Below, one piece after another: positions 5,292-58,949 of a DNA stretch of 64,000 nt (positions are counted from its first letter, which is position 1; each line of letters begins with the position of its first letter). A program made the position numbers and the translations under genes. The notes beneath the pieces are model-generated. The model was not told the DNA's origin. It did not search any database and saw nothing but the letters and a program-made list of their open reading frames with translations. The DNA is taken from NCBI GenBank assembly GCA_009694745.1, contig SHUF01000002.1:1-64000 (forward strand), read 5' to 3'. The stretch comes from Acidobacteriota bacterium. Lineage in GTDB: Bacteria; Acidobacteriota; Vicinamibacteria; Vicinamibacterales; SCN-69-37.

Positions 5292-8288
5292 ATGGATTTT
5301 GGCGGGAGACTTATGGTGAGACGTTACGCGGCAGTTGTGTTGGTGATCATCGGTGGCGTGGCAGGTCTGCTCGCGCAGGCCCCAGCGGCCACGCATCCAC
5401 TGGCCCGCGACCTGCGGTGGCGCAACATCGGTCCGGCCAACATGACGGGCCGCATCGCCGCCATCGAGGCACTGTCCACCGATCACCGCTACGTGGTGGT
5501 GGCGTCCGCATCGGGCGGCGTGTTCCTCTCGAAAAATGCGGGCATCACCTGGGACCCGATCTTCGACCGCTCCGAGGGTGCCGGCTCGATCGGCTCGGTG
5601 GCGATCTTCGAGCCGAACCCGAACATCATCTGGGTGGGCACGGGTGAAGCCGCCAACCGCAACTCGAGCGGTTGGGGCAACGGGCTGTTCAAGACCACCG
5701 ACGCCGGCAAGACGTGGCGGCACGTCGGTCTGGCCAACACCCACCACATCGCCGAGATCGCGCTGCACCCGACCAATCCCGACATCGCTTACGCGGCCTC
5801 GCCCGGCCACCTCTGGGGCTACTCAGGCGACCGCGGCCTGTTCAAGACCACCGACGGCGGAACCGCCTGGACAAAACTGGCGGGCGGCCTGCCCAGCGAC
5901 GGACGCACGGGGGCCACCGAAGTCATCATGGACCCGCGCAACCCGGACATCCTGTACGCCGGCATGTATCACCGCCTGCGACAGCCGGCAACGATGCACT
6001 CGGGCGGACCCAATGGCGGCATCTTCAAGACGCGCGATGGTGGCCGCACGTGGCAGCGGATGAGCAAAGGCCTGGCGGCGGGCGACTCGGGCATGATCGA
6101 CATCTCCATCCACCTCGCCAACCCCGACATCGTCGTGGCGGCGTACGAAGCCGACGAAAACATTCCGTACGACCCGGCACGACCGACCTCGGCACAAACG
6201 CCGGGCTCTGGCATTTACATCTCCGAGGATGCGGGGGCGTCGTGGAAGTGGCTGCTGAAGACCCATCTGCGACCGTTCTACCACGGGCAGGTGCACATCG
6301 ACGCGAACAACCCGAAGCGCATCTTCTCGGTGGGACGCGAGTTCAAGGTGTCGCTCGACGGCGGCGTCACCTGGCGCGACAAATGGTGGGGCGGCGGCGG
6401 GGACGAGCACGATTTCTGGATGGCGCCCAGCGACTCGAAGATCTTCTATACCGCCACCGACCAGGGCGCGTACCTGACGGTGGATGACGGCCAGACGATT
6501 CTGTCGTTCGACAACATGGCCATCGGGCAGTACTACAAGGTGGGCGTCGACATGCGCGACCCGTACTGGGTGGTCGGCGGTCTGCAGGACAACGCGATCT
6601 GGAGCGGCCCGAGCAATTCTCGAGAGACCCGCGGCATCCTCAACATGCACAACACGTGGCTGGGCGAAGGCGACGGCTTTGCCTCTCTGGTCGATCCCAC
6701 CGACTATCGCGTGACCTACATGGTGAATCACGTCGGGTTTGCGATGCGCCTGAACGTTGAGACACGCCAGCCGACGTTCATCACGCCGACGCCGGAGACG
6801 GTGCTGAATTTTTCGGATTACTCCGACGTGGGCTACACCGAAACACCCATCCGCTACACGATTGCCCCCGGCGAGCACTGGTTCCGCTATGGGCAACCCA
6901 ACCGGCCGCTGATGCCGCCGCACTTCCGCTTCAACTGGAACAGTCCTCTGACGATGTCACCGAGCAATCCGCGGACGCTGTACTTCGGCGGCAACCACGT
7001 GTTCAAGTCGGTCGATCGCGGCGACACGTGGCGCATCATCAGCCCAGACCTGACGGCCAACAATGCCGAGTGGCGCAATCCGTCGAACTCGGGCGGGTTG
7101 ACGCGCGAGGTGACGGGTGGCGAAAACCACTTTACGGTGTTCGACGTCCGAGAGTCGCCGCTCGACCCGGCGTTGATCTGGGCCGGCACTGACGATGGCA
7201 ACGTGCAGGTGACGAGGAACGGCGGCGCGCGCTGGACGAATATGCGCGGCAACCTGCCGGGCGTCACCGGCGAGGTGTGGGTCAGCCGCGTGGAGCCCTC
7301 CCACCACGCGGTCGGCACGGCCTACGTGGTGCTCGACAACCATCGGCGCGACGACATGAATCCGCATGTGTTCGTGACTCGCGACTTTGGCGCCACGTTC
7401 ACCGACATCACCGGCAATCTGCCCGAGGGCATCGGGTCGTACGTCATCAATGAAGACCCGGTGAACCCGAACCTGCTGTTTCTGGGCACGGAGTTCGGCG
7501 TGTACGCCTCGACCGAAGGCGGCGGCACGTGGTTCAAGCTGTCGAGCGGCATGCCAAACGTGGCGGTGCTTGATCTGGTGATTCACCCGCGTGACGGAGA
7601 CCTGATCGCCGGCACCCATGGCCGGGCCATCTGGATTCTCGACGACCTCACCCCACTGCGGCAGATGACGCCGGCCGTGGCGAACACGGCCGCGCACCTG
7701 TTCCAAAGCGAGGTGGCCACGAAGTGGGTGACGATCGACCTGGGGCGCATGCAGGAAGACTTTTTGTTTCGCGGCGCCAATCCACCAGCCGGCGCCTCGA
7801 TCAATTTCTGGCTGCGCGAGGCGCCCGAAGGCCCGGTGACGCTGGACGTCTCGGAGTTTGCCGGTGACCGCGTCGCGACCGTGCGTCTGGGCGGCGGCGG
7901 TGCGCAGGCCGGCATCAATCGCGCGCACTGGAACTTCCAGTTTCCGACCACCGCCGCCGAACGCGCCACCATGGCGGCCCGTCTCGACGCCGCCATCGCG
8001 TTTCTGGACGGGCGCGTGGCTGACACCACCCGGCGCCAGCAGCTCGGCCGGCTGCGCAGGGCGCTTGCGGCCGCCTCCACCGATGCCGCGCTCAATCAGG
8101 TGCGATTGGAATTGGTGACCGACTTCAACGGCGAGGCGGCCGGGCGCCCCCTGTTCGGCTCGCCCATCGGCAACAGCACGGCCGGCGCCGGCACCTACCG
8201 CGTCACCCTGCGAGTCAACGGGCAGACGCTCGAGGGCACGGTCACCGTGCGTGACGACCCGATGATGGCCGAGCACGGAGGCCGCTAG
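5292..8288 (+). CDS. VPS10/sortilin-like BNR-repeat (beta-propeller) exported protein
   Basis: Repeated GLFKTTDAGKTW / GIFKTRDGGRTW / HVFKSVDRGDTW BNR motifs; 998 aa with N-terminal hydrophobic signal. Confidence 0.85.
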   Translation: MDFGGRLMVRRYAAVVLVIIGGVAGLLAQAPAATHPLARDLRWRNIGPANMTGRIAAIEALSTDHRYVVVASASGGVFLSKNAGITWDPIFDRSEGAGSIGSVAIFEPNPNIIWVGTGEAANRNSSGWGNGLFKTTDAGKTWRHVGLANTHHIAEIALHPTNPDIAYAASPGHLWGYSGDRGLFKTTDGGTAWTKLAGGLPSDGRTGATEVIMDPRNPDILYAGMYHRLRQPATMHSGGPNGGIFKTRDGGRTWQRMSKGLAAGDSGMIDISIHLANPDIVVAAYEADENIPYDPARPTSAQTPGSGIYISEDAGASWKWLLKTHLRPFYHGQVHIDANNPKRIFSVGREFKVSLDGGVTWRDKWWGGGGDEHDFWMAPSDSKIFYTATDQGAYLTVDDGQTILSFDNMAIGQYYKVGVDMRDPYWVVGGLQDNAIWSGPSNSRETRGILNMHNTWLGEGDGFASLVDPTDYRVTYMVNHVGFAMRLNVETRQPTFITPTPETVLNFSDYSDVGYTETPIRYTIAPGEHWFRYGQPNRPLMPPHFRFNWNSPLTMSPSNPRTLYFGGNHVFKSVDRGDTWRIISPDLTANNAEWRNPSNSGGLTREVTGGENHFTVFDVRESPLDPALIWAGTDDGNVQVTRNGGARWTNMRGNLPGVTGEVWVSRVEPSHHAVGTAYVVLDNHRRDDMNPHVFVTRDFGATFTDITGNLPEGIGSYVINEDPVNPNLLFLGTEFGVYASTEGGGTWFKLSSGMPNVAVLDLVIHPRDGDLIAGTHGRAIWILDDLTPLRQMTPAVANTAAHLFQSEVATKWVTIDLGRMQEDFLFRGANPPAGASINFWLREAPEGPVTLDVSEFAGDRVATVRLGGGGAQAGINRAHWNFQFPTTAAERATMAARLDAAIAFLDGRVADTTRRQQLGRLRRALAAASTDAALNQVRLELVTDFNGEAAGRPLFGSPIGNSTAGAGTYRVTLRVNGQTLEGTVTVRDDPMMAEHGGR

Positions 8289-8423
8289 GAGCGGCGGATA
8301 AGGGCCGTTACGTCATGGAAAGACCCACGTAATACGGACTGTCGGCGGAGTCGGAATGAAAGTGCGCATGCGGAATATCAAGCGGGGAAGTCGGAAAGTA
8401 GAAAGGTAGGGAAGTGGGGAATA

Positions 8424-9841
8424 ATGGCGCCCATGCTTCGTATCGTTTGCCTCTTCGTGCTGTTGGCCATCGCGAATGGCTCTGCGCAGTCCCGGCCGGC
8501 TCCGGACTGGCCCGTCATCGAAGCCGAGACGCTGAAGCACTTCCAGGCGCTTCTGCGGTTCGACACTTCCGACTCTCCGGGGCGTGAACGCGAGGTCGTG
8601 GACTACCTGACGCAGGTGCTCACGGCTGAAGGAATCGAAGTTCAGGAGTATTCCAACGAGGCCCACCGACCCAACCTTGTGGCTCGGCTCAAGGGCAGCG
8701 GCGCCAGGCGGCCCCTCCTGCTCATGGCGCATACGGACACGGTCAATGTCGATCCGAAGAAATGGACGTTCCCGCCCTTCAGTGCCACGCTTGATGGCGA
8801 CTACGTCTACGGCCGCGGCGCCGTCGACGACGAGGACAACGTCACGGCATCGCTGATGGCGATGCTCCTGCTCAAGCGGCTCAACGTGCCGCTTGATCGC
8901 GATGTGATCTTTCTCGCCGAGTCGGGCGAAGAAGGCTCGACGCACGTCGGCGTCAAGTTCATGGCAGATGAGCACTGGGACGCGATCAACGCCGAGTATT
9001 GCTTCGCCGAAGGCGGCAATGTCATGCGCGAGGGCGGCCGCGCGACGTACGCATCGGTGCAAACACTCGAGAAGATTCTCTTTGGGATTGAACTGGCGGC
9101 GACCGGGCCCGCTGGACACAGCTCGATCCCGCTGGAAAACAACGCCGTGGCGCGCCTCGCCAAAGCGGTGGCAGCTGTCAGCGCATGGCAACCGGAGATT
9201 CGTCTCAACGAAACGACCAGCGCGTTTTCAAGAGACTGGCGGACATCTCGGAGCCGGAGGCCGCCGCCCGATATCGGGCCGTCGCCGATCCAGCCAGGGT
9301 CACGGACGCAGACGCCCATTTTCGGCGCTTCGAACCTCGGCTCTCCGCGATGCTGCGCACCACCCTTTCGCCGAATATGGTGTCCGGCGGATATCGCATT
9401 AACGTGATCCCGTCGGATGCGCTCGCGACATTCGACACGCGGATCCTGCCGGACGAAAACCTCCAGGCTTTTCTCGAACAGGTGCGCAAGGTGGTGAACG
9501 ACCCTTCGGTCGAAGTGCGTCTGGCGAAGCGCAATCTGAGGCCCGGTGGTGTGGAGGCGCGCATCGACTCTGACGTCTTCCGCGCGCTTGAATCGTCGGC
9601 AAAGACGCATTACAACGTGCCGACCCTGCCGACGATGGGCACGGGCGCGACCGACATGGCGTTCCTCCGCGCCAAGGGAATGCAGTGCTACGGCGTCGGC
9701 CCGGCCATCGATATGGAGGACGCGGCGAAGGGCTTTGCGGCCCATAGCGATCAGGAGCGGATCCTAGTGAACGAACTCAATCAATTTCTGCGGTTCTACT
9801 GGGACGCGGTGACGGCGATCGCTGGGAAAGTAGGGAAGTAG
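8424..9841 (+). pseudogene. M20-family metallopeptidase, frameshifted
   Basis: ORF 8424-9407 holds the N-terminal half (LLMAHTDTVNVDPKKW, YVYGRGAVDDEDN) and ORF 9185-9841 the C-terminal half (GGYRINVIPSDA...MGTGATDMAF); frame changes near 9215-9230. Confidence 0.8.
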
Positions 9842-9891
9842 GGAAGTAGGACCTCGCGATTCAGCTTCATTGCCGGGCTCGAATCGTCCCT

Positions 9892-10112
9892 TCAGGCCGG
9901 AAGACGAAGCCGGCGCGCCGCCAGGGCACGGTCACCGTGCGTGACGACCCGATGATGGCCGAGCACGGCTGCTAGGAGCGGTTTCCAATTCGGCGTAGCG
10001 GAAACCGCCCGGAGGGCACGGGCTTCAGCCCGTGCCGCGCGTCCCGGGCTGAAGCCCGGGACCTCCGAACGCCTACGGTCGTCGAGCCGGCGTGCGGCTT
10101 CGACCTGGCCCA
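9892..10112. repeat. compound inverted-repeat region containing a copy of the VPS10 gene tail
   Basis: GCGGTTTCC..GGAAACCGC at 9979-10009 and GGGCTTCAGCCC/GGGCTGAAGCCC at 10011-10066. Confidence 0.6.
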
Positions 10113-10192
10113 ATTCGAGCGGCTTCTCCTCGAGGAGGATTTCGCCAGCGCCTCCAATCGATTACGAATGAAGGTGTCCCTGGCGGTAAGGC

Positions 10193-12409
10193 TCAGAACG
10201 GAAACATCTGACTGAACTTCACAATCACGCCTCGTCCCGGCGGCGCGCCATCCGTGGTGAACCGCTGTTCGTTGTACACGACGTACAAGTCGCTCAACGG
10301 GCGGTGAATGAAGTTGAATCGAATGTTGGTGTTGATCTGCCGGCGGTCGCGGTTGTACTGGACCAGCGCATCCAGGAACATGTTCGTCGTGAAGGAATAG
10401 TTCGTGCGCATCGTGACGATCGATGACACAAAGGACTGTCCCGGCAGCAGGAGCTTCCCAGACGTGCGTTGCAGGCCCACCGTCATGCGCCACTGGGCGC
10501 TGGGTTGCACGGTCGCCGTGGCCGACACCGATCGCTGGGTGCCGTTCCACAGCCTACCCCAGTTGATCGTCGCCGTGCCGCTGAAGGTGCGGCTGGCGTC
10601 CGATTGCGTCAGCAGCCGCCACTCGGCCCACGAGTAGTCGCCGGGCGCCAGGGCCACTGTCGCGTTTGGAAACTGCAGCGGCTGCATGAGCGCCTGCATC
10701 TGCGCGTTGTGGGACAACTCCACATAGGCGCCCGACTTCCGGAGAAATGTCATGCCCGAGTGCAACGTGCGGGCGATGGCCCGATTGGATGGGTCGGTAT
10801 ACCAGTTCCACGCGACGTGCGGATGCAGCTCACGAAGCCCGACGCGATTCAGCCACGCCGGTCGTGGCCGCAGCCCGGTATCGACGAGGTATTTTCTGAC
10901 GCCGGTGCGCCGATAGTAGGCCAGGTCATCGCGGAACCCCCGGCCGATCACCAGCAGGCCGGCCTTTCCGTGGAAGAAGGGCCCCTCCCAGTTGAGCGAT
11001 GTGCGGGCCGCGTACTGATCGTCCTGCACGCCTGGAGTCACGCTCCGCATCACGTAGGAGCTCCAGTCGAGAATTCGGTACAGGCGAATATTGGCATCTG
11101 CGCCAAAGACCCTGTTGTAGTCCGCGGTGTCTGCCGTGTTCTGACGCGACATGACGATCACTCCCACGTCCGAGGCGCCAAACAGATTCCGCCGCAGCCG
11201 CAACACGGAGTAGTTCGTCGCCGGAGACGCCGGCGCTGACTCGGTCTGTACCGTCAGGGCTCCAATCGCGAACCCCCCGGCGCGTCCGGTCAATCTGGCG
11301 CCCGCGAGGATGGGGACGGCGGAACCCGATGGACTCAATCCGATCCGGCGGCTGAAAAACAACAGCAGGTCTTCATCGGGTGTGGGGGTCGGGTTCATGC
11401 GGTTGCGCGCGGCGTCACCCACGTAGAACAGCCCGGCATTCTCGAGGAAGAAGCTCCGTTTTTCCGGGAAGAACTGCGAAAACTGCGTCAGATTCACCTG
11501 CTGTTCGTCGGCTTCCGCTTGCGCGAAATCCGGGGCGACCGTGACATCAAGCGTCAGCGCCGGCGTCACGGCGTACTTCACGTCCAACCCGATGTGTGAT
11601 GTCGAGTCGTACGCGGAGTCCCCCAGGGCACGAACGGCGCCAGCGAGGACATACGGCTTGATCTGCAGGTTGCGACCCGGCCGGGCATCAGACAGGCCCA
11701 GCAACTGACCGGCGAGCGAGACACGCGCCAGAGAAAACGACCGGGGCACGGGTGACCAATAGTCGATCTCGTTCTTGCGCCGGATGCGGCGACTGAAGTT
11801 GATGCCCCACTCCCCACCGGGCTCGAAGCGCAACGCCGTTAAGGGAATGGCCATCTCGACGGTCCATCCTTCAGCGGTGCGCTGCGTCCGCACCGTCCAC
11901 ACGCCGTCCCAGCTCGCATTGATGTCGCGTCCTTCGTTGGTGATCTGCTGATCGGCTCTGGCGCCCGCCGGGGTGGTGGCAAACAGAAATCCATTGCGCT
12001 TGTCGCCGAACGAATCGATAACCACTTCGAAAGTGTCCTGGCCTGTGAGGGCAAAGTCCTTGCGGAGGTCCTTGACCACCAGGCTCGCCGCATCGCTGTC
12101 GTGACACATCGCGCCGATGAACAGCGCGGCGCCGTCAAACAGCATGCGCACGGTGGTGCGCTCAGTCGCGGGCTGGCCGGTGAAGGGTTCGCTTTGCACG
12201 AACCCTTCAGTCGGAATCGCGGCGGTCCACGCCGCATCCGTCAACGCTCCGTCAACAACCACCGGCGTGGTGGCCTGAGCCACCACGATTTCCCGCCGTG
12301 CCGCCGGTTGAACGGGAACCGGGGCCTGGGACGCCATCGTCGTCGAAATGGAGAACACACACAGCATTACCGCCCAGGCCCGCATCATCGGAAAAGTGTA
12401 GTGCAACAA
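10193..12409 (-). CDS. DUF5916-type protein with CBM9-like N-terminal domain
   Basis: PVVVDGALTDAAWTAA..., FSRRIRRKNEIDYWSP, FPEKRSFFLENAGLF motifs; signal peptide; C-terminal barrel. Confidence 0.8.
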   Translation of the reverse strand: MLHYTFPMMRAWAVMLCVFSISTTMASQAPVPVQPAARREIVVAQATTPVVVDGALTDAAWTAAIPTEGFVQSEPFTGQPATERTTVRMLFDGAALFIGAMCHDSDAASLVVKDLRKDFALTGQDTFEVVIDSFGDKRNGFLFATTPAGARADQQITNEGRDINASWDGVWTVRTQRTAEGWTVEMAIPLTALRFEPGGEWGINFSRRIRRKNEIDYWSPVPRSFSLARVSLAGQLLGLSDARPGRNLQIKPYVLAGAVRALGDSAYDSTSHIGLDVKYAVTPALTLDVTVAPDFAQAEADEQQVNLTQFSQFFPEKRSFFLENAGLFYVGDAARNRMNPTPTPDEDLLLFFSRRIGLSPSGSAVPILAGARLTGRAGGFAIGALTVQTESAPASPATNYSVLRLRRNLFGASDVGVIVMSRQNTADTADYNRVFGADANIRLYRILDWSSYVMRSVTPGVQDDQYAARTSLNWEGPFFHGKAGLLVIGRGFRDDLAYYRRTGVRKYLVDTGLRPRPAWLNRVGLRELHPHVAWNWYTDPSNRAIARTLHSGMTFLRKSGAYVELSHNAQMQALMQPLQFPNATVALAPGDYSWAEWRLLTQSDASRTFSGTATINWGRLWNGTQRSVSATATVQPSAQWRMTVGLQRTSGKLLLPGQSFVSSIVTMRTNYSFTTNMFLDALVQYNRDRRQINTNIRFNFIHRPLSDLYVVYNEQRFTTDGAPPGRGVIVKFSQMFPF

Positions 12410-48640: not shown

Positions 48641-49221
48641 AACGACAATTCTTCGCAATGATGGCGTTCGTGGTGGTGGCTGGGAGTGCGCTGGTGCTTG
48701 CCCTGCCGGCGTCCGCGGTCAGGCCCGAGCCCGGGCGTTTGATCCAGCTGGCCGGCAATCCCACGCTGGTGCTCGACACCGCGAAGGGCGTGATCGAAAT
48801 CGAGTTGCTGCGCGGCGACGCCCCGAAGAGCGTGGACTTTATCGTTGCCCTGGTTGAAAAGAACTTCTATCGCGGACTCAGGTTCCATAGGGCGGAGCGA
48901 GGCCTCGTGCAGGTGGGGGATTCGGCGTCGCGGGATGTGTCGAAGAAGGAGTGGTGGGGGCGTAGCGCCCCGACCTCGACGATCGGCGTGGCCGAGATCT
49001 CCAGAAAATTGATCCACGTACGGGGCATGGTGGGTCTCGCGCACACCGGAAATCCCCAGCTTGCAGGCAGCCAGTTCTACATCATGAAAGAAGCCAGCCC
49101 ATCGTTGAACGGCAAGTACACGATCATCGGGCGGGTGCGCGTGGGCATGCCTGTCGTCGATACGGTGAAGTTCGCCGACGTGCTCAAGCAGGCGACGATC
49201 AAAGTGGCAGTCCCGAAGTAG
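48637..49221 (+). CDS. cyclophilin-type peptidyl-prolyl isomerase, exported
   Basis: Signal peptide; GVIEIELLRGDAPKSVDFIVALVEKNFYRGLRFHR...GSQFYIMKEA. Confidence 0.87.
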   Translation: MKRQFFAMMAFVVVAGSALVLALPASAVRPEPGRLIQLAGNPTLVLDTAKGVIEIELLRGDAPKSVDFIVALVEKNFYRGLRFHRAERGLVQVGDSASRDVSKKEWWGRSAPTSTIGVAEISRKLIHVRGMVGLAHTGNPQLAGSQFYIMKEASPSLNGKYTIIGRVRVGMPVVDTVKFADVLKQATIKVAVPK

Positions 49222-50116
49222 TCACGATCCCTTCGAGGTCGGGGTACCGGTTCACCATTTCACGTTCATAGAGGCCGGGTACGTTCTGGCCCAGTTGTGA
49301 CCTGAGCACCGCGGCGTTCGCCACGGCCTTGGCCGAGAAGTGGTTGTTCATGAAGGCCATCACCTTGCGGCCCGTCTGCGCTGCCTCAGCCGCCGCCACC
49401 GCGAACGGCTCCAATTCCGCCGGCGAATACAGGTAGTTGTACCTGTCCTCCGCCTGCTCATGACTCCACCATGCGTCTGCGTTCCGTCCGTGCATCCGGA
49501 CATAAACAACCTCTGAGGTCGTTTCCGGAAAATTCAGAGAAACGACCTCAGAGGTCCTTTCTGGATCGTCCGCGATCACCAACCCCGCGCGGCCTGAAGC
49601 AAGACGCGCGGAGGTCTCGGCGCCGGGCGCGAACCACGAGCGATGGCGCAGTTCCACCGCGAGCGGGTAGCCGGCGAACGCCTCGAGCACCCACGACAGG
49701 TACTCGCGCATTGGCGCGTCGGCGTGAAAACTCGACGGAAACTGCACGAGCAGCGCGGCCATTCGGCCCGCATCAACGAGCGGCGCCACGCCTGCGCGGA
49801 AGGCGTCCACGTCGCCCAACGACAGACTCCAGTCCTTCACCCCGGCTCGAGCCAGGTACATGTCAGGGTGCGTGAACTTCTGGAACAACTTGATCGCGAA
49901 CTGAAAATCCGCCGGCGTGCGGCTCACCCACTTGTCGACCAATCCGGGATCCGGCATCCGGTAAAACGTCGAGTTCACTTCGACGATGTCGAAATGCTCG
50001 GCGTAGTAGCGCAATTCATCAAACCCGCGCGGACGCCGCGCGGGATAGAACACCCCATTCCACGTGCCTTTGCCGGTGGGGTAGTTCCAGCTGGAGGTGC
50101 CGACGCGGATGCTCAT
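49199..50116 (-). CDS. DUF72 family protein with in-frame repeat-derived insert
   Basis: IRVGTSSWNYPTGKGTWNGVFYP...FDIVEVNSTFYRMP...FMNNHFSAKAVANA. Confidence 0.9.
   Translation of the reverse strand: MSIRVGTSSWNYPTGKGTWNGVFYPARRPRGFDELRYYAEHFDIVEVNSTFYRMPDPGLVDKWVSRTPADFQFAIKLFQKFTHPDMYLARAGVKDWSLSLGDVDAFRAGVAPLVDAGRMAALLVQFPSSFHADAPMREYLSWVLEAFAGYPLAVELRHRSWFAPGAETSARLASGRAGLVIADDPERTSEVVSLNFPETTSEVVYVRMHGRNADAWWSHEQAEDRYNYLYSPAELEPFAVAAAEAAQTGRKVMAFMNNHFSAKAVANAAVLRSQLGQNVPGLYEREMVNRYPDLEGIVTTSGLPL
49505..49560. repeat. GACCTCAGAGGTC palindromic repeat pair inside the DUF72 gene (site 4)
   Basis: AACCTCTGAGGTC at 49508-49520 and GACCTCAGAGGTC at 49544-49556. Confidence 0.88.
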
Positions 50117-50608: not shown

Positions 50609-51127
50609 TCATCGCCGCGCATTGAAACCCGCAAGCAGGCTCACGCGCACGCCGGACTTGGAGGGCACGACCGCAAGATTCACCGGGACGTTGAGGTTGC
50701 CGACACGCAGCGTCATCCCCGCCGCAACGGCCATGGCTGAGCCGGCCGGCGTGAGGTTGGGGCCCACCGCAAACTCGATGCCCTTCGCCGTCCGAAATCT
50801 CACCAGCCAGCTCACACTCGGCAGGAAGGCACCCTGGTCGATGCCACCGACCAAGAGGATCCACTCGGTGATGGCAGTTGCGCCGTTCTCACTGGAGAGA
50901 AACCGTTTCTCCTTCTGCCAGCCGAACTGGCTGACGAAGGAGTCCACTTCAACGTCGTGCTCCCCCCGAAGTGTGCGGACGACTCCGTCGCTCAGAAAGG
51001 TGATGCCGATGCGCGGCCCCGACAGGTTCATGGTCTCGGGCCGGCGAAGAGGAGACGGCTCCTGAGCGGCGGCGGCACGCGGAAGTAGCGAAAGGCCAAG
51101 TACGAGCAACGAGGCAAATCGTGTCAT
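50609..51127 (-). CDS. exported hypothetical protein
   Basis: Signal peptide MTRFASLLVLGLSLLPRAAAAQ; ends ...LAGFNARR. Confidence 0.6.
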   Translation of the reverse strand: MTRFASLLVLGLSLLPRAAAAQEPSPLRRPETMNLSGPRIGITFLSDGVVRTLRGEHDVEVDSFVSQFGWQKEKRFLSSENGATAITEWILLVGGIDQGAFLPSVSWLVRFRTAKGIEFAVGPNLTPAGSAMAVAAGMTLRVGNLNVPVNLAVVPSKSGVRVSLLAGFNARR

Positions 51128-51328
51128 GGGGCACTCCGATATAGGCGAAACTGCACTCATGCGGTCCTGCAAGCGCGACAGTACGGCCGCAGGGGCGTCG
51201 AAGTCGTGAGGAGGGACGGAGGAATGTCTGAGGAAACCGTGTCGGACGCGCCGATCAACGTCTTGGAGGCAGCGTCAGGTCGTGTGGCCGTGCGGCCCGC
51301 CGCTCGCGGCTATTCTCTGACCAGACAC

Positions 51329-51467
51329 CACCGCCAGAATCTCCTCTCCGTACAACTCCCGTCGCCGCGGCCCAAAATCGGCAATGCCGGCCAGATCGTC
51401 GAGGGTGCGCGGTGGACGCTGCGACAGGTCGTGGAGGGTCGTGGAAGGCAGGATGACGTCCGAGCCG
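51329..51467 (-). pseudogene. duplicated 3'-end relic of rnd
   Basis: Highly similar to 52980-53122 at the end of rnd; encodes DVILPSTTLHDLSQRPPRTLDDLAGIADFGPRRRELYGEEIL. Confidence 0.85.
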
Positions 51468-52949
51468 GGGCGCAGCCAGATACATGTCGGGGGAAAACGT
51501 CGAGTTCACCGCGACGATAGTGACGAATGCTGTTCCGCCACGCGCGAAGCGCCGTATCATCCCCGTTTCATATCCCTGAACTACCTGGCGACCTGCTTCC
51601 AGTGCACGTGGCCGTGGGAGATGCTTGTCATGCTCTGCGACGGTCGCATCGTCTGTGGCTGTGCCGACCCGTTGGCGAAGCGCGTGTTGGGCGACGCGAA
51701 AACGGCCTCGATCGAACACATCTGGAACGGATCGACGCTCAACGCGCTCCGAAGAGATATGAATGCCGCTGGATCGAAGTTCTGCGGCGACTGCGCGCTG
51801 AAGCGACCCCTCGAGCCTGGTGAGGTGCCGGTGGTCCAAGCACTCGACGCCGGCCGCCATCCGTCGCGGATGTTCATCGAGTGCACGGCGGCCTGCAACA
51901 TCTCGTGTTATCAGGCGTGCTGCGCACTCGAGACCGGGATCACGCGCACGCGGCAGGCGGGCATGCTCGACTTCGAGCTGTTCCGCAAGGTCATCGACGA
52001 AGTGGGGCCGACGCTCAGCCGCATCGACTTCTTCAACTACGGAGAAGCCTTTCTGCACAAGCGAGCGGTCGAGATGTGCGAGTACATCAAGAGCCAGTTC
52101 CCGCATGTCTATCTCTACACGAGCACGAACGGCCTTGCGCTCAGCGAGGAACAGGCCAGGCGGCTGGTGCATTCTGGCATCGACGAGGTGACGTTCTCGA
52201 TCGACGGCGCACGCGCCGAGTCGTACGTGCAGTACCGTCAACGGAATAAGTTCGATGTCGCGACGCGCAATCTCCGCGCGATGGCCGCCGAGAAACGCGA
52301 CAGTGGTCGCGACCTGCCGCACATCAACTGGCGCTACATCCTGTTCAAATGGAACGACAGCGACGAAGAGATGGAACTGGCGCGCCAGTTGGCGCTGGAG
52401 ATGGGGGTGGACCGGCTCTGCTGGGAAATCACCGATCACCCAGAAGATGCATTCTCGCGCCGGTTCCTGCGCGGGACGCCGGCGGTCGAGTCAATCCGTG
52501 TCGAGACCTGGGACGACAGTAACATCGGCAACGCGATACCAGGCGCGACACCGCGTGCGCAGATCGAGATCGAGTGCGAGACGTCACCCGACGTCTGGCA
52601 TCCGGCCGAGCAGTTGACGACGTCTGCGGGCGAGTCGTTCGTGATCAGAGCGCGTGTGCACAACCTGTCCACGCGGCTATTTCCCGCCGACGCGACCTAC
52701 AGCCGCCGGTTCGTCCGGCTCGGCGCGCAACTTGCCGACCAATCGGGCGCTCTCGTCAATCGCGATTTCTCACGTGCTGGCCTTCCGCACATCGTCGCCC
52801 CTGGCGGCGCCGCGCAATTCTGGGTGAGGCTGCCGTCTCCGCCGGTGCCTGGACGCTACACGTTGAAGTTCGACCTCGTGTCCGAAGGCATCGACTGGTT
52901 CGAGCGATGCGGGTCACCGACGACGACGGTGCCGCTTGTTGTGGGTTGA
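51453..52949 (+). CDS. N-terminal SPASM-like / radical SAM / C-terminal Ig-like domain protein
   Basis: CTWPWEMLVMLCDGRIVCGCADPLAKRVLG...IEHIWNG...FCGDCALK; then ECTAACNISCYQACC; C-terminal beta-rich YTLKFDLVSEGIDWF; true start uncertain. Confidence 0.8.
   Translation: MTSEPGRSQIHVGGKRRVHRDDSDECCSATREAPYHPRFISLNYLATCFQCTWPWEMLVMLCDGRIVCGCADPLAKRVLGDAKTASIEHIWNGSTLNALRRDMNAAGSKFCGDCALKRPLEPGEVPVVQALDAGRHPSRMFIECTAACNISCYQACCALETGITRTRQAGMLDFELFRKVIDEVGPTLSRIDFFNYGEAFLHKRAVEMCEYIKSQFPHVYLYTSTNGLALSEEQARRLVHSGIDEVTFSIDGARAESYVQYRQRNKFDVATRNLRAMAAEKRDSGRDLPHINWRYILFKWNDSDEEMELARQLALEMGVDRLCWEITDHPEDAFSRRFLRGTPAVESIRVETWDDSNIGNAIPGATPRAQIEIECETSPDVWHPAEQLTTSAGESFVIRARVHNLSTRLFPADATYSRRFVRLGAQLADQSGALVNRDFSRAGLPHIVAPGGAAQFWVRLPSPPVPGRYTLKFDLVSEGIDWFERCGSPTTTVPLVVG
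51468..51526 (-). pseudogene. internally deleted DUF72 relic
   Basis: Minus frame TIVAVNSTF|SPDMYLAAP matches DIVEVNSTF...HPDMYLARAG of the DUF72 gene at 49199-50116. Confidence 0.65.
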
Positions 52950-52974
52950 TTCCCGACTCGGACCATGCTGGCAG

Positions 52975-54105
52975 TCATCGTGACACCACCACCAAAATCT
53001 CCTCCCCGTACAACTCCCGTCGCCGCGGACCGAAGTCGGCAATGCCCGCCAGATCATCCAGGGTGCGCGGTGGACGCTGCGACAGGTCGCGGAGGGTCGT
53101 GCGAGGCAGGATGACGTCCGATTCCACGCCGCGGGCATTCGCGCGCGTCTTTCGCCACTGTTGCAGACGATCGTATCGAGCCAGCACATCGTCTGGTGGC
53201 ACCTCGATGATGGGCGCAGGCGGAACGGGTGCGTGCAGCCCTCGCTGGATGGCCGACAGCAACCCCCGCCCATGCCTGTGGACCTGGCCGGGCGTCATGC
53301 CGGGAGTGGCGCTCAGGTCGTCGAGACTTGCCGGCGCGCGAAGGGCAAGTTCCATCAGCACTGGTTCGCCCATCACCTTGAACGGCGGCTGGTTGATTCG
53401 CTCGGCCTGACCCTCGCGATAGTCGAAGACCGCCTGCAGGATTGCGGTCTGACCGGGCGGCAAAGCGCGAGCGCCTTTCACGCGCCAGAACGCCATGGGG
53501 TCTGGCGACGGGCCCGGGGGTTTCGGCCGGACGTGCGCCACACGCTCGAAGTCCTCCTGGGCCTCTGCCCAATGACCGCCTTCGACCAACGCCGCGTGCA
53601 GGCGTTCGCGAAGCGGCAACAGATACCGCGTATCCAGTCGGGCGTAGTCCAGCATGTCGGTCTTCAGAGGACGTCGCCCCCAGTCGGCCCGTTGGTGCGT
53701 CTTGCTCAACGTGACGTCGAACTGCCTATTGAGCACCGCGGCGAGACCCACCTGTGGCCATCCCAGCGTTCGCGCGGCCGACATCGTGTCGAAAATGTTC
53801 GCGAACACGAACGAAAAGTCCCGGCCAAGACCGAGTAGGTCGCCCTCACTGGCGTGGAAGATCTTCTCCTGGTCGGGACTGGCAAAGAACGGCGTCAACC
53901 AGGTCAGATCCGGCACCGCGATCGGATCGACGATGTAGTCGGCGCTGGGCGTGGAGAACTGAATCAGGCACACGCGCTCCCGATAGGCGTGGAGGCTGTT
54001 GGACTCAGTGTCCACGCCAACGGCGGCGCAGGACGCGAGGTCCGCGACGAGACGCCGCAGGCCAGAAGCATCGTCGATGAGAGTGGGCGGCGGAAGCAGC
54101 GACAT
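52975..54105 (-). CDS. rnd: ribonuclease D
   Basis: AVGVDTESNSLHAYRERVCLIQFST, FHASEGDLLGL, DYARLDTRYLLPLRERL; HRDC-like C-terminus. Confidence 0.93.
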   Translation of the reverse strand: MSLLPPPTLIDDASGLRRLVADLASCAAVGVDTESNSLHAYRERVCLIQFSTPSADYIVDPIAVPDLTWLTPFFASPDQEKIFHASEGDLLGLGRDFSFVFANIFDTMSAARTLGWPQVGLAAVLNRQFDVTLSKTHQRADWGRRPLKTDMLDYARLDTRYLLPLRERLHAALVEGGHWAEAQEDFERVAHVRPKPPGPSPDPMAFWRVKGARALPPGQTAILQAVFDYREGQAERINQPPFKVMGEPVLMELALRAPASLDDLSATPGMTPGQVHRHGRGLLSAIQRGLHAPVPPAPIIEVPPDDVLARYDRLQQWRKTRANARGVESDVILPRTTLRDLSQRPPRTLDDLAGIADFGPRRRELYGEEILVVVSR

Positions 54106-54145
54106 ATACCGCCAGTATGATGTCAAGGTTAAGATTCAGTGGAGT

Positions 54146-54787
54146 GTGCTGACCGTCCACGAAATCTACGTCTCTGTGCAGGGCGAGTCCACGCATGTCG
54201 GACGGCCGTGTGTCTTCGTGCGCCTGACGGCGTGTGACCTCCGGTGCGTCTGGTGCGACACGCCCTACGCCTTCACTGGGGGGAAGAAGATGTCCATCGA
54301 CGAGGTCGTCGGCGCCGTTCGCGACCTACAGTGCAACCTCGTGGAGTTGACCGGCGGTGAGCCGTTGCTGCAACCAGAGGCCATCCCACTGATGCGGCAC
54401 CTGCTGGACGACGGATTCGAGGTGCTTGTCGAGACCGGCGGCCATTTGCCAATCGATCGCCTGCCGAAAGGCGTCCACGCCATTATGGACGTCAAGTGCC
54501 CTGGCAGCGGGGAAGCGGGGAAGATGCACTGGCCCAACCTCGACGCGCTCTCGAAGGACCACGAAGTGAAGTTCGTCATCGCCGACCGCGCCGACTACGA
54601 ATATGCGCGACGCATCATCACCGAACACGACCTTGCCGTGCGAGCCGGCGCGGTCCTCCTCTCACCGGTGCACGGCGTGCAGCGTCCCGACGAAGTGGTG
54701 AAGTGGATGCTCGACGATCGCCTGGGCGCACGCCTGCAGATCCAGGCGCACAAGTTCATCTGGACGCCGGAGACCCGCGGCGTATGA
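54146..54787 (+). CDS. queE: 7-carboxy-7-deazaguanine synthase
   Basis: [55 protein letters not shown]. Confidence 0.94.
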
Positions 54788-55446
54788 AACGCGCCGTCGT
54801 TCTCCTTTCAGGCGGCCTCGACTCGGCCACTGCCGCCGCCATGGCTCAGCGCGAGGGATGGGAGTTGTTTGCCCTGACCCTGAGGTACGGACAGGTGCAT
54901 CAGGCCGAACTGGAAGCTGCCCGCCGTGTGGCCGCAGCCCTTGGTGTGTCGCGCCATGTGGAACTCGAGGTTGACTTGAAGGCCTTCGGCGGCTCGTCGC
55001 TCACCGGCGACGGTGACATCCCCAAAGACGATGTGGATGCGCCGGGGATTCCGACCACCTATGTGCCCGCGCGCAATACCGTATTCCTGTCGCTGGCGCT
55101 CGCGTGGGCCGAGGTGCTGGGCGCCGAGCGCATCGTCATCGGCGTCAACGCCATCGACTATTCGGGATATCCCGACTGCCGTCCCGAGTACATCGCGGCG
55201 TTTGAGTACCTGGCGAGTCTGGCGACCAAGGCGGGCGTGGAAGGGCGCGCACTCCGGCTCTACACGCCGCTGCAGGATCTCACCAAGGCCGGCATCATTC
55301 GACTGGGTACCGAGCTGCGCGTGGACTTCAGCCTGACCCACAGTTGTTACGACCCGCTCGAGGACGGCAGGCCGTGCGGTCACTGCGACAGCTGCCTGCT
55401 GCGCGCCAGAGGCTTCGCCGAAGCCGGAGTGGTTGACCCCGCATGA
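54784..55446 (+). CDS. queC: 7-cyano-7-deazaguanine synthase
   Basis: [20 protein letters not shown]-loop, [19 protein letters not shown]-terminal [14 protein letters not shown]. Confidence 0.96.
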
Positions 55447-56624
55447 CCCATCACCTGTATTACACCGACGCGCTGCAGACCACCTTCGACGCGGCCGTGG
55501 TGTCGTCTTCCGTGGTGGACGGCAAGCACCACATCGTGCTGGACACCACAGCGTTTTACCCCACCTCGGGTGGTCAGCCCTTCGACACGGGATCGCTCGG
55601 CGGCCACGCCGTGCTTGATGTCGTGGATGGCGATGGCGGCGTCATCACTCACGTGGTGGCGGGCCCCTTGGAGCCGGGACAAACCGTCACGGGCGTCGTC
55701 AATTGGGCGCGGCGGTTCGACCACATGCAGCAGCACACCGGGCAGCACATCCTGTCCGCGGCGTTTGAGCGCACGAGTGGCGTGCGCACCGAGAGCTTTC
55801 ATCTGGGTAGTTCGTCCTGCACGATCGACCTCGCCCGCGAAGTGACGCCGGCCGAGATTGCCGCCGCCGAAACCCTGGCCTGCGACGTAGTCTTCGAAGA
55901 TCGCCCCGTGCAGGTCCGGTTCGTGAGCGAGGCAGAAGCGGCTGCACTGCCGCTCCGCAAAGGCCCGAACAGGACCGGCACGCTGCGGCTGATCGAGATC
56001 GACCACTTCGACCTGTCCGCCTGTGGGGGCACGCATACGCCGACGACAGGGCGTGTGGGCGTCATCGCCGTGTCCGGCTGGGAGCGATTCAAGGGCGGCA
56101 GCCGCATCGCATTCGTCTGTGGCCACCGCGCCGTCGTGTCGTACAGAACCCTGCGGGATGTGGTGACCGGACTCGTGCGCCAACTGACTGTGGCGCCGCC
56201 GGAGATTGGCTCAGCGATCGAACGCCTGCAGACCGACTCGCGCGCGAATCAGAAGGTCATCCGACAGTTGAGAATCGCAGCGGCCGAACACGAGGCCGCG
56301 CAGTTGGTGGTCGCGGCCGAAGACGTGGGACCGTTCCGTCGTGTGCTGGTCAGTAGTGCGGACAGCGATATCGACGTGCTCAAGACGTTGGCATCAGCCA
56401 TCGCGGCACACGCCGGATGCGTCGCTGTCGTGATTGGGGATGGTACCCCCGTACCGGTGGTCGTTGCGCGCGCGGCAGACGTCGCCTTCGATGCCGGCGC
56501 CTGGGTGAAGCAACTCACGGCCGCTTGCGGAGGCCGGGGCGGTGGTCGTCCGGAAATGGCGCAGGGTGGAGTATCAGGATCGGCCGCCGAGATCGTCGCG
56601 TTTGCTCGCGACTCCGTCAGGTAG
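55443..56624 (+). CDS. alanyl-tRNA editing protein (AlaX-like with DHHA1)
   Basis: [51 protein letters not shown]. Confidence 0.9.
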
Positions 56625-56645
56625 ACGGGATACAATCCGATTTCC

Positions 56646-58949
56646 GTGCTCGCATCTGTTTATCAATTCTTGTTTAAGTACCAGCCGCTGGTCTTCGAGC
56701 AGGGAGACTTCGTATGGGGCAGCTCCCGCTGGATGGTCGGCCTCGTGCTGGCAGCGACGGGTGCGGCGGTGTACGCCCTTCTGACATACCGGAATGTGCG
56801 CGGCCACGGCGCACGCGACCGCGCCGTGATTGTCGGCTTGCGCATTGCGGCGCTCGCACTGCTGGCAGTCTGCCTGCTGCGCCCCATGCTGGTCCTGAAA
56901 GTGGCGGTGCCACAGCAGAACTTCGTCGGCGTAATGCTTGATGACTCGCGCAGCATGCAGGTGGCGGACCTTGAAGGCCATCCGCGCGGCAACTACGTCA
57001 CCGAAAACTTTGGCACCGCTACCGGCCCGCTGCTCGCCAAACTCTCTGAAAAATTCGTTGTCCGCACATACCGCTTTTCGTCTTTCACTGAACGGCTCAA
57101 TTCCGCCGGTGATCTGACCTTCGACGGCACGGGCAGCCGCCTCGGTGATGCGTTGGGCCGCGCGAAAGACGAACTCTCGGGCCTGCCTCTCTCCGGCCTC
57201 ATTGTCGTCTCCGACGGTGCAGATACGTCCGAGACCACGCTGGATTCATCGATCACGGACCTCAGGGCCGAGAACATTCCCGTCTTCGCCGTTGGCGTCG
57301 GCGAAGAGAAGATGACGCGCGACATCCAGGTCAGCCGCGTGGAGACACCGCGCCAGGCGCTCAAGGGGTCGTTCCTAGTGTTGGACGTGGTCATCACGCA
57401 GACGGGTTTCGAAGGGCAGACCCTGCCCCTGATAGTCGAGAGCGAAGGCCGGGTGGTGGATACGCAGGATGTGCCGATGCCCGACAACGGCGAAGCGGCC
57501 ACCGTGCGAGTGCGATTCAAGGTGGACGAGAGTGGCCTGCGCCGGTTCAGGTTCCGAATTCCAGAGCAGGCGGGTGAACAAGTTCTGCAGAACAACGCGC
57601 GCGAGAGCGTGATCGAAGTACTCGATCGCCGCGTGAAGTTGTTGTACCTGGAGGGCGAGCCGCGGTTCGAAGCCAAGTTCATCAAGCAGGCCCTTGAGGC
57701 GGATCCCAACATTCAGGTGGTGCTGCTGCAGCGCACCGCCGCCGCAACGCCATCGTCGCCCACGAAGTTCCTCCGCCTGGGGATCGACACACCGGACGAA
57801 CTGATCGAAGGGTTCCCCCTCAAGGAGGAGGACCTCTTCGCGTATTCAGGCCTGATCCTGGGCAGCGTCGAAGCAAGCGCGTTCACGGTGGAGCAGCTCC
57901 GGATGATTGCCGACTTCGTGGGCCGGCGCGGCGGCGGGCTGCTGACGCTGGGCGGCCGGCGGTCATTCTCCGAAGGCGGGTGGGGCGGCACGCCCGTCGC
58001 CGAGGCCATGCCTGTGGCGCTCAACGCCGCCACCAACGCGCGGTCAACCGACTACTTCTCGCACGTCGCCGTTGAACCGGCGCGGGCCGGACTCGCGCAT
58101 CCGCTGGCGCAACTGGCGGCCACCGAAAAAGGCTCGATTGAAGCGTGGGGCAGGTTGCCGCGCCTGACGAGCGTGAACCCGATCGATGCCGTCAAGCCCG
58201 GCGCTACCGTGCTCCTCAAGGGCGAGGACGAACGCGGCCGCGAGCAACACATCCTGTCGGCGCAACGGTATGGTCGCGGCAAGGCCGTGGCTTTCGCGGT
58301 GCAGGACTCGTGGCTCTGGCGCATGCACGCCACGATGGCCCCCACGGACCTGACGCATCATCAGTTCTGGCAGCGGCTGCTGCGCTGGGTGGTGGATGGC
58401 GTGCCAGGGGTTGTTGAAGTCTCGAGCTCGCCCGAACGCGTGGAGCCGCGTGAGCCAGTGACGCTCACGGCCCAGGTCGGCGACAAGAAGTACACCGATG
58501 TGAACGATGCCCGGGTCGTCGCGACTGTGCGGTCGCCAACGGGCATCGTCAGTGAAGTGCCGATGTCGTGGAGCGTCAAACGCGACGGCGAGTATCAGGC
58601 GACGTTTGCGCCGCTCGAAGAAGGCACGTACGAAGTGCGCGTGACGGCCACCAAGAACGGCGAAACGCTGGGAACCTCGGTCACGCACCTGCGGGCCGCG
58701 CCGAGCGAACGCGAATACTTCGATCCGGCCATGCGCGGGTCGCTGTTGCGCCGCCTGGCCGAAGAAACGGAAGGCAAGTTCTTCAAGTCTGCTGATACGT
58801 CGGGCCTTTCAGACGCCCTGACGATGAGCGGGCGGGGCGTGACCGTCGTAGAAGAGAAAGACCTGTGGGACATGCCGGTGTTGTTCCTGCTGCTTGTGGC
58901 CCTGACGGGCAGCGAGTGGTTGTATCGCCGGGCAAGGGGGTTGGCATGA
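56646..58949 (+). CDS. large membrane protein with VWA-like and glutamine-amidotransferase-like regions (BatA-operon type)
   Basis: N-terminal TMs, MLDDSRSMQVAD, LSGLIVVSDGADTSE, GGGLLTLGGRRSFSEGGW. Confidence 0.75.
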   Translation: MLASVYQFLFKYQPLVFEQGDFVWGSSRWMVGLVLAATGAAVYALLTYRNVRGHGARDRAVIVGLRIAALALLAVCLLRPMLVLKVAVPQQNFVGVMLDDSRSMQVADLEGHPRGNYVTENFGTATGPLLAKLSEKFVVRTYRFSSFTERLNSAGDLTFDGTGSRLGDALGRAKDELSGLPLSGLIVVSDGADTSETTLDSSITDLRAENIPVFAVGVGEEKMTRDIQVSRVETPRQALKGSFLVLDVVITQTGFEGQTLPLIVESEGRVVDTQDVPMPDNGEAATVRVRFKVDESGLRRFRFRIPEQAGEQVLQNNARESVIEVLDRRVKLLYLEGEPRFEAKFIKQALEADPNIQVVLLQRTAAATPSSPTKFLRLGIDTPDELIEGFPLKEEDLFAYSGLILGSVEASAFTVEQLRMIADFVGRRGGGLLTLGGRRSFSEGGWGGTPVAEAMPVALNAATNARSTDYFSHVAVEPARAGLAHPLAQLAATEKGSIEAWGRLPRLTSVNPIDAVKPGATVLLKGEDERGREQHILSAQRYGRGKAVAFAVQDSWLWRMHATMAPTDLTHHQFWQRLLRWVVDGVPGVVEVSSSPERVEPREPVTLTAQVGDKKYTDVNDARVVATVRSPTGIVSEVPMSWSVKRDGEYQATFAPLEEGTYEVRVTATKNGETLGTSVTHLRAAPSEREYFDPAMRGSLLRRLAEETEGKFFKSADTSGLSDALTMSGRGVTVVEEKDLWDMPVLFLLLVALTGSEWLYRRARGLA

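Follow-up and report, generated by a model that had tools for sequence, protein, structure and literature searches.

In the window (the whole 64,000-nucleotide stretch of an Acidobacteriota contig analysed here) lies the gene for a radical SAM protein that is complete and conserved and is built of a twitch-type auxiliary Fe-S domain, a partial (beta/alpha)6 barrel and an FW/Ig-like domain. Its family is uncharacterised and occurs chiefly in Vicinamibacterales; the alignment of the members gives CX3CX4C as the family-wide main cluster motif. The explanation that best accounts for these observations as a whole, to which we assign a probability of about one half, is that of an oxidising radical SAM enzyme with an N-terminal auxiliary cluster and an FW docking domain, the gene of which was relocated from an ECF sigma factor operon.

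The radical SAM domain and its cluster motif

The longest open reading frame begins at 51384 (51384-52949, plus strand), and its frame is open from 51321. Pfam finds in it a SPASM domain (residues 74-137, E 2.6e-8), then a Radical_SAM domain (residues 166-303, E 2.8e-7) and, after the latter, a weak N_BRCA1_IG/FW match. With 31.3 bits to PF04055 against a curated cut-off of 29.5 and three invariant or nearly invariant cysteines, the radical SAM domain (51879..52430, plus strand) falls within the superfamily, and it also carries the NYGE and TNG motifs. AlphaFold2, given 76 family members as input, predicts, from the N to the C terminus, a small domain of hairpin and helix, a partial barrel with six strands (100-103, 151-154, 181-186, 206-210, 251-259 and 282-287) and a beta-sandwich tail, with a mean pLDDT of 93 and a pTM of 0.90, the least certain part being the stretch right after the cluster loop (block mean pLDDT 67 at 121-130). 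The best PDB fold match of the barrel is the cytosylglucuronate decarboxylase BlsE (PDB 7vob), with which only about 216 columns align (TM 0.35-0.48) and from which the accessory domains differ. Among NCBIfam models the radical SAM domain best matches TIGR04317, the tungsten cofactor oxidoreductase radical SAM maturase, at 93 bits against a cut-off of 380; AFOR was not found in the window genome, which rules out maturation of a tungsten oxidoreductase.

The cluster motif, C109-NIS-C113-YQAC-C118 (51894..51923, plus strand; cysteines here and below are counted from the ATA codon at 51570), had been read in the first-pass annotation as CNISCYQACC with an unusual CX3CX3C spacing. The letters are correct, the motif has the same length in relatives from other genomes, and the spacing is indeed unusual and family-wide, but it is not CX3CX3C. 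In the 75-member family alignment C109 is kept in 74 sequences and C113 and C118 in all, whereas position 117 varies (C in 65 of 75, I in five, V in four, H in one), so that CX3CX3C is ruled out as the ligating motif and neither it nor the canonical CX3CX2C describes the family. In distant relatives from CSSED10-310 and Aminicenantes the corresponding segments are CNLDCYKSVC and CNLSCFKAVC. The agreement of the 75 members likewise rules out a local sequence error, one of the conditions under which the earlier reading was to fall, as the source of the spacing. By eye, the segment from the second cysteine to the conserved glycine is two residues longer than in a canonical protein of the same genome (L002, CQLRCPSC), so that the cluster loop is expanded by two residues. 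One family member elsewhere (L057, 8001-9356) has tyrosine for the first cluster cysteine (AECTAAYNLSC) and NYSE for NYGE, and is, judging from these substitutions, probably inactive.

Such a spacing is no bar to membership, because the radical SAM superfamily accepts non-canonical motifs, among them CX2CX4C in ThiC, CX5CX2C in HmdB, CX14CX2C in QueE and CX2CX21CX5C in PhnJ (PMC4389238). Like these enzymes the window family departs from CX3CX2C, and like QueE it has an enlarged loop on a canonical barrel; here the enlargement, of two residues, lies between the second cysteine and the third. CX3CX4C occurs in none of the enzymes listed there as non-canonical (PMC4389238), and no radical SAM enzyme carrying it was described in the literature searched outside the subscription journals, which falls short of proof.

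The gene neighbourhood in relatives and the apparently relocated copy

At full-length strength the enzyme was detected in 31 of 60 relatives, including one in which the gene is divided between two contigs, and in 15 of 199 genomes sampled across the phylum. A Luteitalea genome of the Vicinamibacteraceae (L020) is one that carries the gene. The earlier statement that no partner gene lies nearby holds for the copy in the window, but not for the relatives, in which the gene typically follows an ECF sigma factor, a STAS protein and a small protein. Among relatives with enough flanking sequence (73, 71 or 68, depending on the gene), a gene for a protein of about 90 residues lies directly upstream on the same strand in 58 of 73, at a median gap of about 30 bp, with a STAS gene (58 of 71) and an ECF sigma factor gene (54 of 68) further upstream, while lpxC lies downstream on the opposite strand in only 29 of 60. 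Two loci (L049 and L082) have lost lysA and tmk but keep the four genes as one block, which favours an operon. In two loci of a neighbouring genus (L153, 3197-4267, minus strand; L155, 596-1738, plus strand) an apparent secreted creatininase-family gene follows the enzyme gene, a neighbour not seen at L006 or at the window locus; the creatininase-like MftE partners a radical SAM enzyme in mycofactocin.

The small protein was considered as a possible partner. It is encoded in 55 of 60 relatives, between the STAS gene and lpxC or the radical SAM gene (for example L085, 5141-5470, minus strand, and L054, 7718-7990), contains no cysteine, matches no Pfam or NCBIfam model, and has diverged to 37-45% identity in the window's family. 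All 31 enzyme genomes within the 60 relatives carry it, and together with its adjacency to the enzyme gene this would agree with a peptide or protein maturase, acting on a ribosomal peptide or a partner, perhaps the small protein itself, with the FW domain binding that partner. Many SPASM/twitch enzymes do act on peptides or proteins, and the best NCBIfam matches of the radical SAM domain are maturases (TIGR04317 and TIGR04311). However, 24 of 60 genomes have kept the small gene, often at 63-76% identity, but have no enzyme, which is unlike a dedicated substrate and makes the dependence between the two genes a loose one; no RRE domain was found by Pfam, the small protein is the only precursor candidate, and AFOR, the type of partner served by TIGR04317, is absent from many other enzyme genomes besides that of the window. 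The distribution of the small gene thus weakens its candidacy as a dedicated substrate, and we regard a maturase as a doubtful, though not a negligible, reading.

Compared with the relatives, the gene in the window has apparently moved. In the window genome the sigma/STAS/small-protein block lies on another contig (C62; L085, 5141-6382, minus strand), without the enzyme and with lpxC only 3 bp away, and six other genomes of the same genus lack the enzyme. The window copy is carried on an insert (51464..52981) that is missing at the syntenic site of the sister genome G001 (L176), where the sequences corresponding to 50709-51463 and 52981-58000 of the window adjoin. The insert is bordered by a 140-bp direct repeat, of which the upstream copy (51324..51463) is a duplicate of the 3′ end of rnd (84% identical to G001) and the downstream copy (52982..53121) lies inside the 3′ end of rnd itself (86% to G001), an RNase D-like gene at 52975-54126 on the minus strand. 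In the tree the window copy groups with those of L004 and L006, with L007, which has the usual operon, next; no genes of the usual operon were detected around the L004 and L006 copies, although L004 has little upstream sequence. Taken together, the enzyme-free operon of the window genome, the grouping with L004 and L006, and the insert-free site in G001 indicate that the gene apparently left the operon within this clade, and by this comparison its arrival at the rnd site appears to postdate the divergence from G001.

No transposase gene was seen in the insert. A phage or plasmid origin was rejected, as there was no phage match, plasmid matches were partial only, and viral contigs held no relative. 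The 106 bp upstream of the gene gave only a 28-bp match, to a minus-strand gene at 49199-50116 that we take to be a DUF72 gene; this 28-bp repeat (49960-49987 and 51491-51518, 89%), a piece of that gene, hints at a more complex rearrangement.

The start of the gene also calls for a correction. The first-pass annotation had placed the start at 51570, where the conserved protein begins, but the codon there (51570..51572) is ATA, whereas in 69 of the 75 family members this position is occupied by ATG (44), GTG (23) or TTG (2). Translation in the window probably begins upstream, the best candidate being the ATG at 51453 behind a Shine-Dalgarno-like GGAAGG, which gives a probable coding extent of 51453..52949 on the plus strand. 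Because the native start codon is lost, expression of this copy is in some doubt, and the copy might be a decaying relic, stray at the rnd site and no longer expressed. Its long terminal branch (0.38), its absence from the six congeneric genomes and its position beside a duplicated rnd tail would fit such a relic. Against this, the frame is fully open, the upstream ATG is usable, and dN/dS (0.23 to L004 and 0.18 to L006) indicates purifying selection and is similar to that of other pairs; start aside, only R9C, G226N and L319I deviate from columns conserved at 95%. Moreover, the copies of the repeat are now 91% identical to each other, which means that the insertion is not new, and yet the frame has stayed open. 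A relic is accordingly improbable in our estimation, and we take the window copy, on the evidence of its sequence, to be functional, the chief reservation being the start codon.

Reversed domain order and the FW-like tail

The N-terminal domain (51603..51797, plus strand) is assigned to the SPASM/twitch type by PF13186 (34.5 bits, cut-off 21.5), by conservation and by its homology to the twitch domain of BtrN. Across the 75-member alignment C12, C29, C31 and C72 are invariant, C75 is nearly so and C23 is mostly kept, in line with a truncated SPASM fold having about four cysteine ligands, the cluster itself being predicted. A full SPASM domain binds two auxiliary clusters through seven cysteines in the motif CX9-15GX4C-gap-CX2CX5CX3C-gap-C (PMC6231123). 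That motif is not present in full, as only the cysteines named above are kept; its start shows CX12G, followed by GX3C and GX5C instead of GX4C.

Searched against Protein Data Bank sequences, the family profile matched BtrN, the 2-deoxy-scyllo-inosamine dehydrogenase (PDB 4m7s/4m7t), twice (E 1.2e-14 in all). Profile positions 7-77 correspond to residues 184-257 of BtrN, its C-terminal twitch domain, and positions 99-209 to residues 22-134, its N-terminal radical SAM domain, so that by sequence comparison the relation is one of homology in reversed order. Further differences are the CX3CX2C cluster of BtrN (C16/C20/C23) in place of CX3CX4C, the CGC of the window family where BtrN has a single cysteine, and the FW-like domain, which BtrN does not have. 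The ligation would differ as well, because the lone middle cysteine of BtrN aligns with G30, between C29 and C31.

Pfam and the double BtrN match in swapped order thus bear out the earlier placement of a SPASM segment before the radical SAM segment; the view of this order as unusual holds with respect to BtrN, but not as a novelty. A twitch domain N-terminal to the radical SAM domain defines the named NCBIfam subfamily NF033640 (N_Twi_rSAM), and phage proteins of the KVP40 type share it at the level of fold; in a viral library, phage proteins gave the best fold matches, with 300-350 columns aligned in sequence order. An ordinary NF033640 member with trivial loop variation is nevertheless a very improbable description. 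In its favour are the shared domain order, the weak match of 73 of 76 family members to the model and the phage structures of the same order that head the viral-library matches. Against it, the score of the window protein is 37 bits where the model requires 170, which rules out membership; TIGR04317 and TIGR04311 give higher scores than NF033640 for the radical SAM domain of the family; and L164, a true NF033640 member from the same bacterial order and likewise twitch first, has CX3CX2C (CNLMCRMC).

The C-terminal beta-sandwich domain (52551..52946, plus strand) is predicted with a pLDDT of 93.9 when the tail is modelled alone. Foldseek places it closest to the FW domains of ILRUN (TMt 0.67) and NBR1 (0.56-0.58), then to the carbohydrate-binding domain of Wzt (0.40-0.45), and the accessory domains of GH123 enzymes match more poorly than the FW domains. 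PF16158 matches 25 of 34 tails; the window tail scores 18.9 bits and that of a relative (L081) 28.9 bits, against a cut-off of 28. The earlier likening of this beta-rich tail to domains of polysaccharide-export proteins was fair, since the Wzt domain is similar, but among small domains the NBR1/ILRUN FW domain (PF16158) is the best likeness; an identification with Wzt itself was rejected, as FW domains fit better and the proteins sharing the tail are methyltransferases. The same type of tail occurs, terminally or internally, on class I methyltransferases in Vicinamibacterales (L147-L152). FW domains also bind proteins, as described for NBR1 (PMC9233695), and a glycan is hence a candidate target rather than an established one. 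At L081 two close family genes lie on opposite strands (7479-9317 and 9822-11462), the first with an extra N-terminal Ig-like domain.

Proposed mechanism and meaning

Based on these findings, we propose that the family comprises oxidising radical SAM enzymes, and that the window enzyme itself is most likely functional and oxidising. C109, C113 and C118 would hold the SAM-binding [4Fe-4S] cluster, and the N-terminal domain would hold one auxiliary cluster through C12, C29 and/or C31, C72 and C75, a single cluster being implied because the domain is of the twitch type. This domain could fold back on the barrel, the auxiliary cluster reaching the active site as in BtrN. Ordinary cleavage of SAM is implied, as for the superfamily in general, because the barrel, the NYGE and TNG motifs and the three cysteines are present; the resulting 5′-deoxyadenosyl radical would take a hydrogen atom from the substrate, and the electron left over would pass to the auxiliary cluster, giving a two-electron oxidation like that of BtrN. 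For the twitch auxiliary clusters of BtrN and SuiB, electron uptake from the substrate radical has been proposed or shown (PMC9012708).

As for the substrate, oxidation of a sugar or surface glycan is our first guess, because sugars or cyclitols are the substrates of BtrN and BlsE, the closest PDB neighbours in sequence and fold, and the fold of the tail is also found in glycan binding; a protein would be the next candidate. The FW-like domain may serve for docking, on a glycan or on a surface protein. In relatives, the ECF/STAS setting suggests regulated use, and the modification would probably belong to an envelope-stress or developmental response, because in most of them the gene is the last of the ECF sigma factor-STAS-small protein operon. 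In the window genome the gene is absent from the operon and stands alone at the rnd locus, where it would be under a new promoter and start codon. The more specific proposal that a CX3CX4C SAM cluster, a permuted auxiliary cluster and FW docking serve an ECF-sigma-controlled modification of surface glycans or proteins in Acidobacteriota is tentative.

Searches for radical SAM enzymes often rest on CX3CX2C, and a family-wide CX3CX4C motif on a canonical barrel would widen that definition, as the loop of QueE did. With its domains swapped relative to BtrN, the family is a natural experiment on how auxiliary clusters gain access to the active site. Finally, the linkage to ECF sigma factor and STAS genes suggests that a large group of bacteria from soil and fresh water carries out a regulated modification.
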